DNA of 35,536 bases, from assembly GCF_000426885.1 (NCBI RefSeq), contig NZ_KE384586.1, positions 7,186-42,721 of the forward strand. Reading direction: 5' to 3'. Under the pieces are notes generated by a model. It worked only from the letters and a program-made list of their open reading frames with translations, ran no database searches and was not told the DNA's origin. A program made the translations under genes and the position numbers. Every line of letters starts with the position of its first letter. Positions within the stretch are counted from its first letter, which is position 1. This document shows positions 584-24,916 of the stretch, piece after piece. The stretch is from Moraxella caprae DSM 19149. Lineage in GTDB: Bacteria; Pseudomonadota; Gammaproteobacteria; Pseudomonadales; Moraxellaceae.

Positions 584-613
584 TGTCTTTTGCCACGCAT
601 TTTGGGTTATAAT
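583..613 (+). promoter_or_regulatory. Candidate trpE promoter
   Basis: A perfect TATAAT (608-613) lies 24 bases before the trpE start, with a weaker TTGTCT at 583-588 (19-bp spacing). No leader peptide rich in Trp codons and no attenuator structure is visible between here and trpE. Confidence 0.5.
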
Positions 614-637
614 AATAAAAATTTTTTAGGACTTGTC

Positions 638-2143
638 ATGCTATCTTTATCCGACTTTCACGCTCTTGCCGAGCAAGGCTATACCCACATTCCACTTATC
701 AAAAAACGCTTAATGGACGATGCCACCCCTGTGTCGGTGTTTGCCAATTTGCGTAAATTTTTTGCGTCCGCTTATCTGTTTGAGTCGGTGGTGGGGGGCG
801 AACGCTGGGCAAGATATTCCATGATTGGACTGGGTTCGGACATTACTATTCAGTATCATGACGGCAAAGTGGTGGTGAAGGATGCTCGCAAGGACGAGAC
901 GACCACGCACGACACCGACCCCTTTGATTTTATCCGCACCTTTATGGCGGAGTACAAAACCCCAAGCCAAGATGTCATGCCCGATTTGCCTGCATTTAGT
1001 GGCGGACTCGTGGGCTATTTTGGCTATGACATGATACGAGTGATTGAGCCGACTGTTGGCGTGTCAAACTCGCCTAATCCTTTGGCTCTGCCTGATATGT
1101 GGCTTACCCTATCATCGTCTGTCGTGGTATTTGACAACCTAGAACATACCCTATCTATCGTGGTTTATGCGGACGTACAAGCCAAAGACGGCTACAAAAA
1201 GGCGGTCAAACAGCTTGATATTATTGAGAATTTGCTGTCGCACAAGCCTGATTTGACCGTCAAAAAACAGCCCCTACCGCATTTTGTCTCGCAAACAGGG
1301 CAAAACAAATTCTGCACGGACGTAAACCGCATTAAGGAATACATCAAGGCGGGGGACGTCATGCAAGTTGTCCCTGCTCAACGTCTGTCAGGTGAGTACA
1401 GTGGCGACCCGCTCGCGGTGTATCGGGCGTTGAGATACCTAAATCCGTCTCCGTATCTGTTTCTCATTCAAGGCGAGCTTGCCAATGACGAGCCGTTTCA
1501 CATCGTGGGGGCGTCGCCCGAGATTCTCTCTCGCATTGAGACGGTGGGCGATGAGCGTAAAGTTACCGTGCGACCATTGGCAGGGACTCGCCGTCGTGGC
1601 GTGGACATGGCAGAAGATTTGGCACTAGAAGCTGAGCTACTCTCCGACCAAAAAGAAATCGCTGAACATCTGATGCTCATTGACTTAGGGCGTAATGACA
1701 TCGGCAAGGTGTGCGACATTGGCACGGTCAAGGTAACTGATAAGATGTTTATTGAACGCTACTCGCAAGTCATGCACATCGCAAGCAATGTAGAAGGCGT
1801 GGTGTCGGCTGATAAGGACGCTCTGGACGTGTTCTGTGCGACTTTCCCAGCAGGCACGCTGTCAGGAGCTCCCAAAATCCGAGCCATGCAAATCATCGAT
1901 GAGGTTGAGCCTGTTCGCCGTAGCGTGTTTGGCGGAGCGGTGGGCTATCTGGGCTGGTCGGGCAACATGGATACCGCCATTGCCATTCGCACCGCCGTGC
2001 TAAAAGACGGACAAGTCCATATCCAAGCAGGGGCAGGCGTGGTGGCGGACTCCGACCCTGTGGCAGAGTGGGACGAAACTAACAAAAAGGCGTTGGCGAT
2101 TGTCAAGGCGGTGGAAATGGCGTGTGGGGGGCTTGTCGTCTAA
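638..2143 (+). CDS. trpE: Anthranilate synthase component I
   Basis: Converts chorismate and glutamine-derived ammonia to anthranilate, the first committed step of tryptophan synthesis, acting with the TrpG glutaminase in the cytosol. The 501-residue protein has the N-terminal regulatory domain with a LFES segment matching the Trp-binding LLES motif, then the chorismate-binding domain with GRNDIGKV, the FPAGTLSGAPK signature, and a C-terminal GAGVVADSDP segment. The start at 638 is chosen because AGG (628-630) precedes it by seven bases and the family begins here; the reading frame opens upstream at 590. No trpG is adjacent, so the partner subunit must be encoded elsewhere. The gene is complete. 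Confidence 0.97.
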   Translation: MLSLSDFHALAEQGYTHIPLIKKRLMDDATPVSVFANLRKFFASAYLFESVVGGERWARYSMIGLGSDITIQYHDGKVVVKDARKDETTTHDTDPFDFIRTFMAEYKTPSQDVMPDLPAFSGGLVGYFGYDMIRVIEPTVGVSNSPNPLALPDMWLTLSSSVVVFDNLEHTLSIVVYADVQAKDGYKKAVKQLDIIENLLSHKPDLTVKKQPLPHFVSQTGQNKFCTDVNRIKEYIKAGDVMQVVPAQRLSGEYSGDPLAVYRALRYLNPSPYLFLIQGELANDEPFHIVGASPEILSRIETVGDERKVTVRPLAGTRRRGVDMAEDLALEAELLSDQKEIAEHLMLIDLGRNDIGKVCDIGTVKVTDKMFIERYSQVMHIASNVEGVVSADKDALDVFCATFPAGTLSGAPKIRAMQIIDEVEPVRRSVFGGAVGYLGWSGNMDTAIAIRTAVLKDGQVHIQAGAGVVADSDPVAEWDETNKKALAIVKAVEMACGGLVV

Positions 2144-2401
2144 TCACAGCTTTTCGCAGATTTGCAGGTTTAGCCGAACAAAATCGTCCCAAGCGATGTG
2201 TTCGGCTAAATGCTTTTTATAATAATTCTCTACCTGACAAATAAGTGGGCGTTCATCATAAATCAAACATAGGTTGGTGTCATCATTAAAATGCCGACAA
2301 ACACCATCGCCACGGTCTAAATAAGCAGTATGTTCACTCAGATTGACACGGCGACAGCATTTGCCACAGGATGTGCATGGAAAAGGCGTAAGATTATCCA
2401 T
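2144..2401 (-). CDS. YkgJ-type small cysteine-cluster protein
   Basis: An 85-residue protein with the cysteine pattern of the YkgJ / UPF0153 family: C9xxC12xxC15C16 near the N-terminus, then C35, C45 and C55. The cysteines are thought to bind zinc or an iron-sulfur cluster; no enzyme activity is firmly assigned. The start at 2401 is preferred to an in-frame ATG at 2461, which would add 20 residues unlike the family. With this start the gene overlaps the end of the upstream 544-residue gene by 8 bp, so the two are probably translationally coupled. It may be a core gene that the accessory operon joined, or part of that module. Confidence 0.8.
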   Translation of the reverse strand: MDNLTPFPCTSCGKCCRRVNLSEHTAYLDRGDGVCRHFNDDTNLCLIYDERPLICQVENYYKKHLAEHIAWDDFVRLNLQICEKL

Positions 2402-4028
2402 GGAGCTTTTTGGCTTTGCTTTGTAGCCATGACATGGTGCTGGCACTATTTCCCATTTCATAGGGTAATTCTATGCCACGTCTGTCTATTTCGGCTTGTA
2501 AGACTTGTCCTTTTTGGATTTCATTGCTGGCATGGCTAAGAGCGTTAGACAAATCCCTTAACTCTTGGGGGTTGAGATTAAACTCTATTTTGGCAAGATT
2601 GGTAACATAAGCATTTAGCTCAGCATTAATCTCTTTTATATGGTCTAAAAAGACATCATACTTATTTTTAAGGCTGTTTAAAAACTCCCACACTTTTTTC
2701 ATAAGGGGACTATAATCAATAAAATAAGCAGTGCCAACCATCAAAAGACCTGTAAATAATGCACTGACAAAAGCGGCAATCTCCGTGCCAAAAGGTGTGG
2801 TTAAGACTGTCGCCAAATGCTGATGGAGCATAACGCCCAATATGGTAGAAACGCTTGCAAAAATAAGTCGGGTAATCTCTCTCATCAAATCGCCAAATGC
2901 CAACTTTTGGGGGTTTAATACCAACAGTTTGATGACTTGCACCAAGTTACTCCAAGATTCACGAATAAGTTTCCCCATTAATTTGGTACTGGTTAAGAAA
3001 ATATTTAAAATGGTGTTGGTAATGCTAGACAAAACCCCAGCAATAAAGCTGTCTTTAAAGGTGTTTAGTACATCTTTAAATCTTAATTTTACCCTTTCAA
3101 AAATATTGTTTAAGGTATTTTTTAGCTCCCCCCAAAACATTTCAAGGCTAAAATTTATTTGACATTTCCTTAAAAGATTTGGCAGAGCTTCTTTTAATTC
3201 AAACCAAATTTCTGCCAATGCCAAGCCTATCGCCTGTCTTGCTCCCATACGAAAGCCTTGGCTAGCAGCAGCCTTTGCGGTGTTTTTAAAAAATTTACTA
3301 CTGGTGTAATAAGCCATACCAATTTCATGATTGTATTCACCCCGTGCTTTTTTGTCAGTTTCAATCATGGCTTCTTTGTCAATATTTTGCAAAGCCTCCA
3401 AATCTTCCTTGGCTTGGCGTAAATTCTGTTTTAAATCCAAAACATCTTGACCGTGAGCATCTTTTGGAAGTTCTGCCAGTTGTTGCTCGTAGTTTTTAAT
3501 TTTGGCTTCATAATTATTAATGCTTTTTGGCAAAACTTCATTCAAAAATTTTTCGGTAGAATGTTGTTTTTTGGCAATATTGATTTTGTCATAGGTGGAT
3601 TGAAAGTTACTATTTTGATTGGCAAGTTCTGAGCCGTCCAATCCTGCCAAAACTCTACCTGCATCATCATGAATTTCTTTGGCGGAGATAATATGGTCTA
3701 AATGACGTTTCTCGCCGTGTTTCATTGTGGTGTTACGGTAGGCATCATGTAATTTGCCCGATTGGTATTTTTGCTTATCTTCTCTGCCTTTGTTGATATA
3801 ATTTTCATGCGAATGATAAGCGTGTGAATTGTAATCGCCACGATTTTCATAGGCAGAACGAGCTTCATCAGTTGCCCATATGCCTTGACGGACGTTGTGA
3901 ATGGTATCCACATCACCGCCTTTTTTATCTTCAAATAATAAAAAATCTAAACCAAAAGTGGTTACAAGGCTATGAGTAACGGTTTTGTTAAGCTCATTAC
4001 GCCAATCAAAGTGTTGGGTGTTTGTCAT
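2394..4028 (-). CDS. Uncharacterised membrane protein with an N-terminal HNH-like motif
   Basis: A 544-residue protein without a firmly recognised function. Residues 104-160 contain HLDHIISAKEIHDD (H109, D111, H112) and, about 30 residues on, NSNFQSTYDKINIAKK, a spacing and pattern resembling an HNH nuclease motif lacking the cysteine pairs. Residues 165-225 are charged and predicted coiled coil. Three hydrophobic stretches follow near 326-348, 385-405 and 412-437, so the C-terminal half should be membrane-embedded. A good ribosome site (GGAG, seven bases) precedes the ATG. It follows the 355-residue gene after 61 bp and is likely co-transcribed with it and the WYL regulator. A nuclease/membrane effector is an inference. 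Confidence refers to a real gene. Confidence 0.85.
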   Translation of the reverse strand: MTNTQHFDWRNELNKTVTHSLVTTFGLDFLLFEDKKGGDVDTIHNVRQGIWATDEARSAYENRGDYNSHAYHSHENYINKGREDKQKYQSGKLHDAYRNTTMKHGEKRHLDHIISAKEIHDDAGRVLAGLDGSELANQNSNFQSTYDKINIAKKQHSTEKFLNEVLPKSINNYEAKIKNYEQQLAELPKDAHGQDVLDLKQNLRQAKEDLEALQNIDKEAMIETDKKARGEYNHEIGMAYYTSSKFFKNTAKAAASQGFRMGARQAIGLALAEIWFELKEALPNLLRKCQINFSLEMFWGELKNTLNNIFERVKLRFKDVLNTFKDSFIAGVLSSITNTILNIFLTSTKLMGKLIRESWSNLVQVIKLLVLNPQKLAFGDLMREITRLIFASVSTILGVMLHQHLATVLTTPFGTEIAAFVSALFTGLLMVGTAYFIDYSPLMKKVWEFLNSLKNKYDVFLDHIKEINAELNAYVTNLAKIEFNLNPQELRDLSNALSHASNEIQKGQVLQAEIDRRGIELPYEMGNSASTMSWLQSKAKKLHG

Positions 4029-4045
4029 TTGATTTCTCCAAGGGA

Positions 4046-4074
4046 TAAGATGCCCTATAAGTTAGAGCATCTTA
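4046..4074 (-). promoter_or_regulatory. Hairpin between the two accessory-operon genes
   Basis: TAAGATGC (4046-4053) and GCATCTTA (4067-4074) form a perfect 8-bp stem with a 13-base loop, just upstream of the ribosome site of the 544-residue gene. There is no T run, so it is more likely an mRNA stability or translation-control element than a terminator. Confidence 0.5.
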
Positions 4075-4089
4075 AAGAGTAGCAAAGCG

Positions 4090-5157
4090 TTAATATTTTC
4101 TGGCATTGCTTGATGATGATTGCAGTTTATCGCCCATCTCTGCGGTATTTAGCACATTGCCGTGAGGACTTTGCTCAAATTGTGGTACATTATTTTCATC
4201 ATATACAATTTTGCCATTTTCTTTTTTCAATTTAAAAATTGGCGTTTGGATAATATCAGTCAAGATTGCCGCCAAAGCGTAACCATTATTGATTGATTGA
4301 ATAATGGTATCTGTTTCCTTGATGGTATCCAATGAACCTTTTCTTATTAACTGTGCAGCCCGTTGCAAGTCTTTTAGATAATGTTTAAATTGGAGATGGA
4401 TATTTTTGACGTTTAGGATAATGTTGACAACATAAGCACGAGTATCGTTAAGATGTGCAATGGCAGCATCGGCATTGCTTTCATACTCAGCAACCTGCGT
4501 GCGAATTTCTTTGGCTTTTTCTAGGGCATCTTTGGCATGAGAGGCGAACGCCCAACCTGCTACAGCAATGACAGGGGCTGCTACTACACCGCTTAGAATC
4601 ATCGCTCCACCAGCCATACCTAAGCCGCCTGCTGCCAATGAACCACCACCAATGGCTGCCATTGTTGCGTTATAAGCTGCTACACCTGATAGAGCGGCTA
4701 TCGGTGTGCCTGTAGAGGCAGCTGCTAAGGCCATGGTGCCACCATAGACAGCGTAAGCTGCCGCAGCACCACCTGCTGCACCACCGACAAGTTTGCCTGC
4801 ATAGGCAACCGAATTCATTGAAAGTGTTTTAATTTGATTTAATTTAAATTGAGGTAAATTAATTTCTAAGTGCTTATTCGAGTGTTGGTTGAGCTTATTT
4901 AATAACTCATCAGCTAATTCTTCAAAGGTTTTAAAGTCCTGTCCAATCGTTAGATAAAGCTCGCCCAATTCATTGATTTTTGATTGAGTGGATTCATTCG
5001 CTTTTTCTAATTGTGACTTTTTACGATCGTATTTAGACTTGGCGTTTTTGACGATATCATCGGCTTCACTTTTGTCTTGATAGCCGTCATAGGCTTTTTT
5101 AGCACCAGTAGCTGCGGTGGCAATGGCGATACCGCCTAGAATAAGTGGCAATGGCAT
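4090..5157 (-). CDS. Uncharacterised coiled-coil protein with a Gly/Ala-rich hydrophobic core
   Basis: A 355-residue protein of unknown function. A short hydrophobic N-terminus (residues 3-18) is followed by a charged helical/coiled-coil stretch (28-95), then a long Gly/Ala-rich hydrophobic region (118-205), a second helical stretch (205-275) and a polar tail ending in four serines. Two long helical arms around a hydrophobic centre recall alpha-helical pore formers such as the ClyA/HBL type, but this is only an architectural likeness. The start has a strong ribosome site (AAGGA, eight bases). It lies 50 bp after the WYL gene and 61 bp before the 544-residue gene, all on the minus strand, so the three probably form one operon. 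Confidence 0.85.
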   Translation of the reverse strand: MPLPLILGGIAIATAATGAKKAYDGYQDKSEADDIVKNAKSKYDRKKSQLEKANESTQSKINELGELYLTIGQDFKTFEELADELLNKLNQHSNKHLEINLPQFKLNQIKTLSMNSVAYAGKLVGGAAGGAAAAYAVYGGTMALAAASTGTPIAALSGVAAYNATMAAIGGGSLAAGGLGMAGGAMILSGVVAAPVIAVAGWAFASHAKDALEKAKEIRTQVAEYESNADAAIAHLNDTRAYVVNIILNVKNIHLQFKHYLKDLQRAAQLIRKGSLDTIKETDTIIQSINNGYALAAILTDIIQTPIFKLKKENGKIVYDENNVPQFEQSPHGNVLNTAEMGDKLQSSSSNARKY

Positions 5158-5207
5158 GGTTAGTTTCCTTATAAAAATGCTGATATTCAGCGGGGTTAAA
5201 ATAAATT

Positions 5208-6083
5208 CTAATCTAAATAAGACTTCAATTCACCCTCCAACCTATCCTGCCATTCTTTTGGCTCGATAATGGTCAAATGCGGTATCCAACACCGTATAAT
5301 GGGCGATAATTCATCATAATGCCAAACCGTGCTTTGTATAAGCCAGTCGCCATTGGCTTGTTTGGCGATAATGGATTGTTTGGGTAAAATCTGTCTTTGC
5401 TGAAAATAGGATATGACCTTTGAGCTGACATTGATAAGAACGGCCATCTCTTTTTGTCCTAGCCAAATGCTATCATCGTTATTGATGAGTGTGTCAATTT
5501 TATCATTGCTATCAAAGTATTCTTTATTGATAATCAAATCAACAATTTTACTTAACCGATAACTTTTTAGTTGGTCATTCTCCACACCTGCCAAATACCA
5601 AAATCCTTCTTTAAAAATTAGTTTGTAAGGATAAATGGTACGTTCTTTATTATCATAACGGCAGTGTATGATTTGGCGATTATTGATAGCACTATCTAAC
5701 CGCTTCATCATTTCATCAAATGCTTGACTGTTTTCATAGGCATAATGATGAATATGATATGAGCTGTCCGACTTTTGTTTGATGAGTTCCCTTAAAAAAC
5801 CAATATCCATATTTGGTAGCAGGTTGTGAATACCGATGAGTTTAATCAGCTCGCCAAATTCTTTGTGGGTTAAATCAAATCGTCGGCTATTATCCAAAGA
5901 CACGACCCCACGGTCACGCACCAACGGCAGATAGCACTCCATGCGAGCCAAATCACGGCGAATGGTTTTGTCGCACACGCCATATTCGTCCGCCAGAGCC
6001 TTGGTGTTCAGCGTCTCGTTGCTGTTTAGGCGGATAAAGATGTCGGCAAATCTGTCCGCCAGTCGTTCGTGCTTGTTGCTCAT
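5208..6083 (-). CDS. WYL-domain transcriptional regulator (DeoR-type helix-turn-helix)
   Basis: A 291-residue DNA-binding regulator. Residues 25-46 form a DeoR-like helix-turn-helix (LADEYGVCDKTIRRDLARME), the WYL domain covers about 130-182 with the FWYLAG core (W162, Y163, L164), and a C-terminal WCX-like extension follows. WYL proteins sense ligands such as nucleic acids or nucleotides and often control phage-defence and mobile-element operons (BrxR, CapW types). It is the first gene of the minus-strand operon and its promoter lies within an inverted repeat that could be its own operator. The ribosome site is weak: AAGGAA lies about 17 bases before the ATG, and an in-frame stop rules out a longer start nearby. 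Confidence 0.92.
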   Translation of the reverse strand: MSNKHERLADRFADIFIRLNSNETLNTKALADEYGVCDKTIRRDLARMECYLPLVRDRGVVSLDNSRRFDLTHKEFGELIKLIGIHNLLPNMDIGFLRELIKQKSDSSYHIHHYAYENSQAFDEMMKRLDSAINNRQIIHCRYDNKERTIYPYKLIFKEGFWYLAGVENDQLKSYRLSKIVDLIINKEYFDSNDKIDTLINNDDSIWLGQKEMAVLINVSSKVISYFQQRQILPKQSIIAKQANGDWLIQSTVWHYDELSPIIRCWIPHLTIIEPKEWQDRLEGELKSYLD

Positions 6084-6150: not shown

Positions 6151-6195
6151 ATTGTACCTATTTTGGGTAAATTCGTCAATATGGTGTAAATAGGT
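6151..6195 (-). promoter_or_regulatory. Promoter of the WYL operon with flanking inverted repeat
   Basis: On the minus strand TTGACG (6174-6179) and TACAAT (6151-6156) are 17 bp apart, a good sigma70 promoter. ACCTATTT (6156-6163) and AAATAGGT (6188-6195) form a perfect 8-bp inverted repeat with arms next to the -10 and upstream of the -35. This is the expected placing for a repressor operator, most simply for the WYL protein. The same region serves the divergent XRE gene at 6216. Confidence 0.65.
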
Positions 6196-6215: not shown

Positions 6216-6461
6216 ATGGTGATGACCAGAAGTATTCACACCACCCAGATGATAGCCTTGCGAGCGTGGCTGTATGACGCACGCACCGCCCAAAACTTAC
6301 CCATGCGGACGCTTGCCGAGCGACTTGACCGCCCGCATTCGTTCGTCCAGCGGGTGGAGAATGGCGACCGCCGTCTTGATGTGGTGGAATTTATCCAGTA
6401 TTGCCAAGCACTAGGTATTGACCCAAAGGTGGGGCTTGACCTAGTGTTGCAGACAGAATAA
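6216..6461 (+). CDS. Small XRE-family helix-turn-helix protein
   Basis: An 81-residue protein that is almost entirely one XRE helix-turn-helix: LPMRTLAERLDRPHSFVQRVENGDRRLDVVEF followed by YCQALGIDPK. Small proteins of this type act as repressors or antitoxins. It is transcribed divergently from the WYL regulator with 132 bp between them, so it may share regulation of the accessory operon. No toxin-like partner follows. Alternative in-frame start at 6222. A hairpin at 6535-6558 lies downstream. Confidence 0.85.
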   Translation: MVMTRSIHTTQMIALRAWLYDARTAQNLPMRTLAERLDRPHSFVQRVENGDRRLDVVEFIQYCQALGIDPKVGLDLVLQTE

Positions 6462-24727: not shown

Positions 24728-24803
24728 TGGCAGAGGCGGCTGGACTCGAACCAACGGATGTCAGGATCAAAACCTGATGCCTTACCAACTTGGCGACGCC
24801 CCT
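24728..24803 (-). tRNA. tRNA-Gln (anticodon TTG), second of a tandem pair
   Basis: A 76-nt cloverleaf including encoded CCA: acceptor AGGGGCG/CGCCTCT with one G-U pair, anticodon stem TCAGG/CCTGA with loop TTTTGAT giving TTG, and T loop TTCGAGT. Identical in sequence to the copy at 24841-24916. Confidence 0.97.
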
Positions 24804-24840
24804 ATAAAGTGTGATAAATTTTTTAAAAATTTGCAAAAAA

Positions 24841-24916
24841 TGGCAGAGGCGGCTGGACTCGAACCAACGGATGTCAGGATCAAAACCTGATGCCTTACCA
24901 ACTTGGCGACGCCCCT
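24841..24916 (-). tRNA. tRNA-Gln (anticodon TTG), first of a tandem pair
   Basis: Same 76-nt sequence as the neighbouring copy, with encoded CCA and a 37-bp spacer between them. It is transcribed first from the promoter at 24930-24957. A tRNA-Gln between ispE and prs is also found in pseudomonads. Confidence 0.97.

Follow-up and report, generated by a model that had tools for sequence, protein, structure and literature searches.

Some of the described systems that resemble the locus reported here join a membrane component to an activity on DNA. SNIPE, in the accessible part of its description, is a membrane-bound GIY-YIG nuclease (PMC13190303), and Zorya and Kiwa, as far as the available text of PMC12904381 goes, combine a membrane-embedded sensor with a DNA-acting protein. 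Here we examine an operon within a 35,536-nucleotide stretch of the Moraxella caprae DSM 19149 genome (hereafter, the window), in which a gene for a WYL-domain regulator is followed by genes for three proteins, A, B and C. The A-B-C unit is genuine, widely distributed and carried on mobile elements, and it is probably, as its genomic context suggests, a mobile defence module directed against phages, or mobile elements more broadly, whose protein B would be a membrane-tethered HNH nuclease. The open-licence literature that we searched held no study of A-B-C and no mention of PDC-M40 or PDC-M09, the PADLOC phage-defence candidates to which B and A are distantly related.

With SNIPE, the module shares an inner-membrane nuclease, as predicted for B, and B is weakly similar to tape-measure families; it differs from the system described in the accessible SNIPE text by its nuclease type and its partner genes A and C, and neither A nor B matched DUF4041 or GIY-YIG in Pfam at E values up to 1. 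The resemblance to Zorya and Kiwa would lie in the pairing of sensor and DNA-acting protein. A and B gave no hit to any Zor or Kwa model, and none of five window proteins hit a Zor model, Zorya being defined by the motor proteins ZorA and ZorB. The module may resemble SNIPE or Zorya in action while being a member of neither. As for Eleos, the system formed by the dynamin-like GTPase LeoA with LeoBC, A gives a partial hit to the LeoBC model (3.6e-8, the best stretch covering A residues 30-159 only), and LeoA was matched by none of the five window proteins.

Within PADLOC, B is a distant relative of PDC-M40B (104.8 bits) and A of PDC-M09A (E values in Table 1). B-type proteins also occur without A. 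In locus L120, such a protein is a close M40B match (1.8e-84, 282.5 bits) with a WYL gene upstream, and is followed by a helical protein with a membrane segment at one end, for which no relationship to A could be detected (hhalign probability 0.3); the L120 stretch gave no match to the A or C profiles, and no other PDC-M40 model was matched among the five window proteins. For PDC-M09, hhalign detects no relationship between B and the M09B protein of L116 (probability 2), and M09B was matched by none of the five window proteins. Another B-type protein without A, in L006, has a helical neighbour, with no segment passing our hydropathy test (19 residues, threshold 1.6). Furthermore, Acinetobacter pecorum (L079, 4293-8190) carries a second set, WYL-A'-small-B', directly upstream of A-B-C, whose B' aligns with the membrane part of B alone (hhalign probability 49) and gave no Pfam HNH match. 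An effector with a membrane part and a helical partner is the theme that recurs.

In the window, the operon is compact (Table 1), with gaps of 50 bases between the WYL gene and A and 61 bases between A and B. The open reading frame of C spans 2144-2461, its probable start being at 2401 by comparison with relatives. Gene C shares 8 bases with the end of B and converges on trpE, the last bases of the two genes (2143 and 2144) being adjacent. A preliminary description of this DNA had placed three open reading frames with short gaps on one strand here, as their coordinates bear out, yet it passed over gene C, although its range began at the very base where that gene ends. Among the four operon proteins, the WYL protein and C alone pass Pfam cut-offs, and no non-defence family over a curated Pfam or NCBIfam cut-off was found for A or B, in answer to the concern that they might belong to a known family of that kind. 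B has a single match in the 2.6-Mb host genome.

A scan of genome contigs with the B profile gave 99 confirmed stretches, of which the best 80 were kept. With profiles run on all open reading frames, A shared the strand of B and lay no more than 3.5 kb from it at 78 of these 80 loci, the two others (L023 and L073) having B at most 160 bases from a contig edge, and C did so at 77. Of the 68 loci with enough upstream sequence, 34 have a WYL gene on the same strand whose end lies upstream at a distance below 1 kb, and at 52 of the 80 loci a WYL gene on one or other strand is no more than 6 kb away. Because of these counts, we take the unit to be A-B-C with the WYL gene optional, so that of the conserved WYL-regulated two-protein module first proposed, the conserved pair stands, the count of two gives way to three, and the regulator is no fixed part. 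A precedes B in 58 loci and follows it in 20, the latter mostly outside Pseudomonadota. By their record titles, the 80 loci span at least six phyla, covering Pseudomonadota, Desulfovibrio, spirochaetes, Bacillota, Bacteroidota and Gastranaerophilales; since A and B co-occur in such distant bacteria, their pairing is more than chance, and their divergences are correlated (r 0.91 over pairs of 84 loci).

The module resides on several kinds of replicon. Plasmid records matching B number 69, among which are all 37 that match A, and the module plasmids come from many hosts, Klebsiella included. Among Aeromonas phages, matches to B come from seven records that represent four phages, and in the jumbo phage LAh10 A stands before B; a tblastn search of phages with the window A gave no match, though the LAh10 A is detectable by profile, and 31 pattern matches from an IMG/VR scan with B yielded none that was confirmed. 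The complete module is uncommon: within the Moraxella family, B is present in 6 of 299 genomes, and in a class-level sample of 321 genomes five match B, eight match A and two hold both at full length. In E. coli, 374 of 5426 complete genomes (about 7%) carry B, always on the chromosome, with 367 matches covering at least 80% of the query. All five E. coli stretches that we viewed have a tyrosine integrase or a remnant of one nearby, in two cases beside a tRNA gene (tRNA-Sec, tRNA-Phe). As an observation apart, the Anaerobiospirillum locus (L094:541-15077) has B twice, and the genes that match A there are enlarged (642 and 691 residues), with a 1061-residue Ala-rich protein between them.

An HNH motif consists of an Asp-His pair in the first strand, an Asn, and then an Asn or His and a Lys in the helix. 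This pattern is present in B across an alignment (A4) of 62 sequences, made up of the window and 61 loci out of the 80, truncated and split copies being excluded. D111, H112, D122, R125, N141, T145 and N150 are invariant and K153 is kept in at least 90%, so the motif HLDHIISAKEIHDD and the Asn/Lys block downstream of it, both pointed out from the letters beforehand, are real and conserved. The B profile also matches a stand-alone protein (6.8e-7) that in turn matches GmrSD_C (3.4e-10), and residues 90-162 of B align with this stand-alone GmrSD_C nuclease at an hhalign probability of 94. Compared with Pfam, 26 HNH subsequences hit HNH_4 in ten cases (best 5.3e-4), GmrSD_C in three and GH-E in three, with four further families matched by one or two each; an endonuclease VII PHROG was matched by one of the 62 B proteins. 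With GmrSD_C and HNH_4 nucleases, B aligns over its HNH residues and a preceding D-x-Y-like stretch, and it differs in that its HNH part is joined to a long helical region predicted to lie in the membrane.

The predicted structure of B has a predicted local distance difference test score (pLDDT) of 76.5 and a predicted template modelling score of 0.44, with pLDDT above 90 over most of residues 61-240. It places a strand (108-112), a second strand (142-146) and a helix (147-153) in the order of an HNH fold, all above 90. In a viral structure library, B found its LAh10 homologue (4.5e-27) and the 154-residue A0A345MTS5 (probability 1.00, E 0.045), and in the VIA comparison the matching rows lie mainly over residues 157-348, barely reaching the HNH part. 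Between the window and M. lacunata, the ratio of nonsynonymous to synonymous substitution rates of B is about 0.12. Some records annotate B as 'ATPase' or 'cobalamin adenosyltransferase'; we rejected both names, as no such family passes a Pfam cut-off, along with weak Pfam matches (ABC_tran_CTD, Laminin_II and others) that lie below cut-offs and in helical regions. Searches of PDB sequences returned unconvincing matches at E 0.11 and 0.91 with the B profile and at E 0.11 with the HNH part, none of them a nuclease.

C-terminal to the HNH part, B continues as a long helical, partly hydrophobic stretch, in which the hydropathy test finds one to three segments in 56 of 62 sequences, none in three, and four or five in three. 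At a threshold of 0.001, three tail or tape-measure families stand alone among PHROG families in having matches from at least two of the 62 B proteins (five, three and two members, with a best value of 1.1e-5). These weak matches may reflect helix composition only.

Protein A has a hydrophobic, Gly/Ala-rich centre between long helices, and AlphaFold (mean pLDDT 73) agrees with this, first proposed, layout in predicting helices at 18-92, 103-123, 208-272 and 282-304 around a centre of low confidence. Constraint on A and B is uneven, as the A family has two invariant columns against 34 in B, alignment A5 taking in fewer sequences than A4. In Moraxella lacunata NCTC10359 (L019), the module is near-identical to that of the window except for A: identity is 95% for the WYL protein, 97% for B and 98% for C, but 40% for A, which differs as a block, the M. 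lacunata allele being without the hydrophobic centre. The label 'pore-like' first given to A may or may not hold, as structure comparison is of no diagnostic value here. The Gly/Ala core was also seen in otherwise different proteins (L115-L119, L124), one of just 102 residues, and is perhaps a portable membrane hairpin. We rejected the name 'chemotaxis protein', given to A in some records, as no such family passes a Pfam cut-off, and we read the 48 PDB sequence matches of the A profile, to viral fusion proteins and coiled coils, as helix look-alikes.

Protein C passes its Pfam cut-off (29.6 bits against 23) and, by a conserved cysteine ladder, is assigned from its sequence to the CxxCxxCC (YkgJ) family, which is described as putatively metal-chelating. 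In ten sequences, C55, C65, C75 and C102 are invariant, while C29, C32, C35 and C36 are kept in at least 90%. C was not found at three of the 80 loci (L087, L094, L097), nor in phage LAh10. PMC9035990, in its available part, places a YkgJ gene next to the gene of a MazF-type toxin within an SGI1-related element.

Co-localisation of the module with defence genes, put forward as a check at the outset, was borne out against controls from the same genomes. Two of 20 genomes had no control stretch, leaving 18 pairs, in which the seven nearest other genes at each locus (126 in all, module and WYL genes excluded) were set against 125 genes elsewhere, with genes of at least 1200 residues excluded on both sides. 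At 1e-20, PADLOC matched 48 families among the neighbours and 8 among the controls, these being numbers of families rather than genes. Since control stretch L190 overlaps locus L048, the module itself most likely accounts for two of the eight control families (PDC-M40B and PDC-M09A); the L190 genes were kept in the counts. The 25 neighbour families listed out of 48, several of them with more than one model, include HEC-06, Orf5, DUF499, REase_I, REase_III, DUF3780, MzaA, ZacB, ZacC, LeoA, LeoBC and PDC-M15A/B, with one LeoA and one LeoBC gene among the 126 neighbours. In the E. coli stretches viewed, a type I restriction system was present in two of five and a SIR2 gene in one; the same stretches held phosphoethanolamine transferase genes (five of five) and, once, P-fimbrial genes.

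The first gene of the operon encodes a WYL regulator, as the preliminary description had it, with helix-turn-helix (HTH) and WYL domains (PF13280, 9e-11, 42.1 bits against a cut-off of 21.8; HTH_DeoR, 1.5e-7, 31.5 bits against 21). According to the available part of PMC9122601, about one in two WYL regulators of the BrxR type are found alongside defence systems, and by analogy a WYL control of the module would fit that family. Upstream of the gene lie a promoter-like site and an overlapping imperfect palindrome, a candidate operator (Table 1). The single promoter match means little, since the scan found 29 such sites in 4.8 kb against 13.2 expected from shuffles. In an alignment of four sequences, the palindrome reads TACTC-N5-GAGTA, with one paired change, in two other genomes of the survey below (G010 and G058).

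We surveyed the site downstream of trpE in 17 genomes in which this side is readable at least partly, three stretches being 2.2-3.2 kb long; L169, on the wrong side of trpE, and L182, too short, were excluded. A WYL gene or remnant follows trpE in seven of the 17. It accompanies A-B-C in the window, in M. lacunata (G086) and, broken, in G045; an AAA-type gene and three small genes in G058 and G025, the G058 ATPase matching IetA (6.5e-37) and TRIP13 (6.5e-16); GTPase-like genes (weak Pfam matches) and, by eye, a transposase-like gene in G010; and nothing else in G083. The agreement between the WYL genes of G010 and the window is 0.73-0.97 over the region that runs from the promoter to the end of the HTH half, and 0.42-0.77 in the remainder, which suggests, on this sequence comparison, a mosaic gene with a DNA-binding half tied to the site and varied sensor halves and cassettes. 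We noted a set headed by a WYL gene in which an AAA ATPase resembling IetA/TRIP13 comes with three small proteins (L171:229-2414 and L174), the small proteins of L171 having no Pfam match at 0.01, and a stretch (L166:434-5651) with a ZorA-like part (3.7e-5), weak double-GTPase and dynamin matches, and a transposase-like gene between them. Divergent from the WYL gene, the window also encodes an 81-residue HTH protein (6216-6461, forward strand; HTH_3 1.4e-6), whose relatives in G058 and G045 (66 and 73% identical) lie at the same place whatever the cassette; this gene may belong to the site. Elsewhere, the window holds two tandem tRNA-Gln genes (TTG, 24728-24916).

Table 1. Features of the operon and its surroundings, in window coordinates.
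Feature	Position	Strand	Remarks
Promoter-like site, TTGACG-17-TACAAT	6151..6179	-	upstream of WYL gene; 10/12 consensus matches
Imperfect palindrome, TACC-N7-GGTA (candidate operator)	6155..6169	-	overlaps promoter-like site
WYL-domain transcriptional regulator	5208..6083	-	291 aa; first operon gene; optional in relatives
Protein A, helical, Gly/Ala-rich hydrophobic centre	4090..5157	-	355 aa; PDC-M09A 2.1e-24; adjoins B in 78/80 loci
Hydrophobic centre of A	4543..4785	-	residues ~125-205; alignments A2, A5
Protein B: HNH nuclease-like part, helical stretch, membrane part	2394..4028	-	544 aa; PDC-M40B 1.2e-30
HNH part of B	3534..3767	-	residues 88-165; D111, H112, N141, N150, K153
Protein C, CxxCxxCC (YkgJ-type) cysteine-cluster protein	2144..2401	-	~85 aa; PF03692 1.1e-6; in 77/80 loci
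trpE	590-2143	+	

The computation establishes the gene unit, its conservation, the HNH residues, the surroundings rich in defence genes and the occurrence on mobile elements; nuclease activity, the topology in the membrane, what A, C and WYL do, the trigger and the defence function are inferred. In our working model, B would be an HNH-superfamily nuclease anchored in the inner membrane by its C-terminal helices, and A a membrane-associated helical partner that either senses infection or keeps B inactive until infection occurs, with C serving as a small accessory protein that might bind metal or an Fe-S cluster. The window operon would be repressed by its WYL regulator until a signal frees it. 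Upon infection, B would cut DNA at the membrane, in the milder version the incoming phage DNA, and in a harsher version host DNA too, amounting to abortive infection.

Several results weigh against this model. For B of the window, neither the whole protein nor its HNH subsequence matched an HNH family in Pfam; Foldseek found nothing in the PDB below E 1 (best 1.3), so that of the HNH fold the predicted order of elements stands without a structural match; and PDB sequence searches with the B profile and the HNH part returned no HNH relative. As for the membrane anchor, a single segment of the window B passes the hydropathy test, where three had been described earlier, and the pLDDT of this part is middling (46-84 in 10-residue blocks). 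Moreover, C and WYL are absent from some loci, the module is broken in G045 and in E. coli 14EC029 (A and B), and A or B is split into two open reading frames at three of 80 loci (L031, L032, L076). Regarding the neighbourhood, some of the PADLOC families are themselves candidates, the figures count families with 25 of 48 listed, and the five E. coli stretches were a non-random choice from the 12 best matches among 374.

Of the other ways to read the unit, one remains close to the membrane nuclease and would make it a new class of injection-site interceptors, in which the membrane part of B mimics a tape measure or injection channel, the HNH head meets the incoming DNA, and A is a specificity subunit swapped in an arms race; it is hinted at by the weak tape-measure matches together with the block-wise difference of A in M. 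lacunata, and we hold it unlikely. We are equally doubtful of an abortive-infection pore, where A would kill by inserting its Gly/Ala hairpin into the membrane, a step that the HNH part of B would do no more than sense or license: the structure match of A to alpha pore-forming toxins (ClyA/HBL type) is non-diagnostic, since unrelated helical proteins score equally well or better, the M. lacunata A does without the centre next to near-identical partners, and constraint falls far more heavily on B. Targets other than infecting phages are conceivable as well. That plasmids of many hosts and some Aeromonas phages carry the module would suit defence or competition aimed at plasmids or rival phages (superinfection exclusion), a reading that overlaps with the anti-phage one; its occurrence also in chromosomal islands with classic anti-phage genes makes it, in our estimation, distinctly improbable.

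A nuclease-like protein with small partner genes on plasmids and islands also recalls toxins of another kind, such as an interbacterial toxin or a toxin-antitoxin or plasmid-addiction set with C or A as antidote. We consider this quite unlikely, given three linked genes across very distant bacteria, a C that is conserved rather than variable and yet missing from a few loci and from LAh10, and no toxin or secretion domain over a Pfam cut-off in A or B. Finally, the unit might have no part in defence and be an operon for DNA repair or for cargo, linked to metal or redox functions, with neighbours that only mirror mobile islands, in line with the putative metal-chelating family of C and the phosphoethanolamine transferase and fimbrial genes of the E. 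coli islands. The excess of PADLOC families over same-genome controls and the AAA ATPase of a defence family among the other cassettes at the trpE site speak against it, and we regard it as very unlikely.

Should the reading as a mobile defence module with a membrane-tethered HNH nuclease be true, A-B-C would be an uncharacterised immune system, its B gene occurring in about 7% of the complete genomes of E. coli as well as on plasmids of Klebsiella and in phyla far apart, and the misleading names in existing records ('cobalamin adenosyltransferase', 'chemotaxis protein', 'ATPase') would be concealing it. HNH would then be one more nuclease type stationed at the membrane to counter injection, and the E. 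coli orthologues would make the system directly testable.

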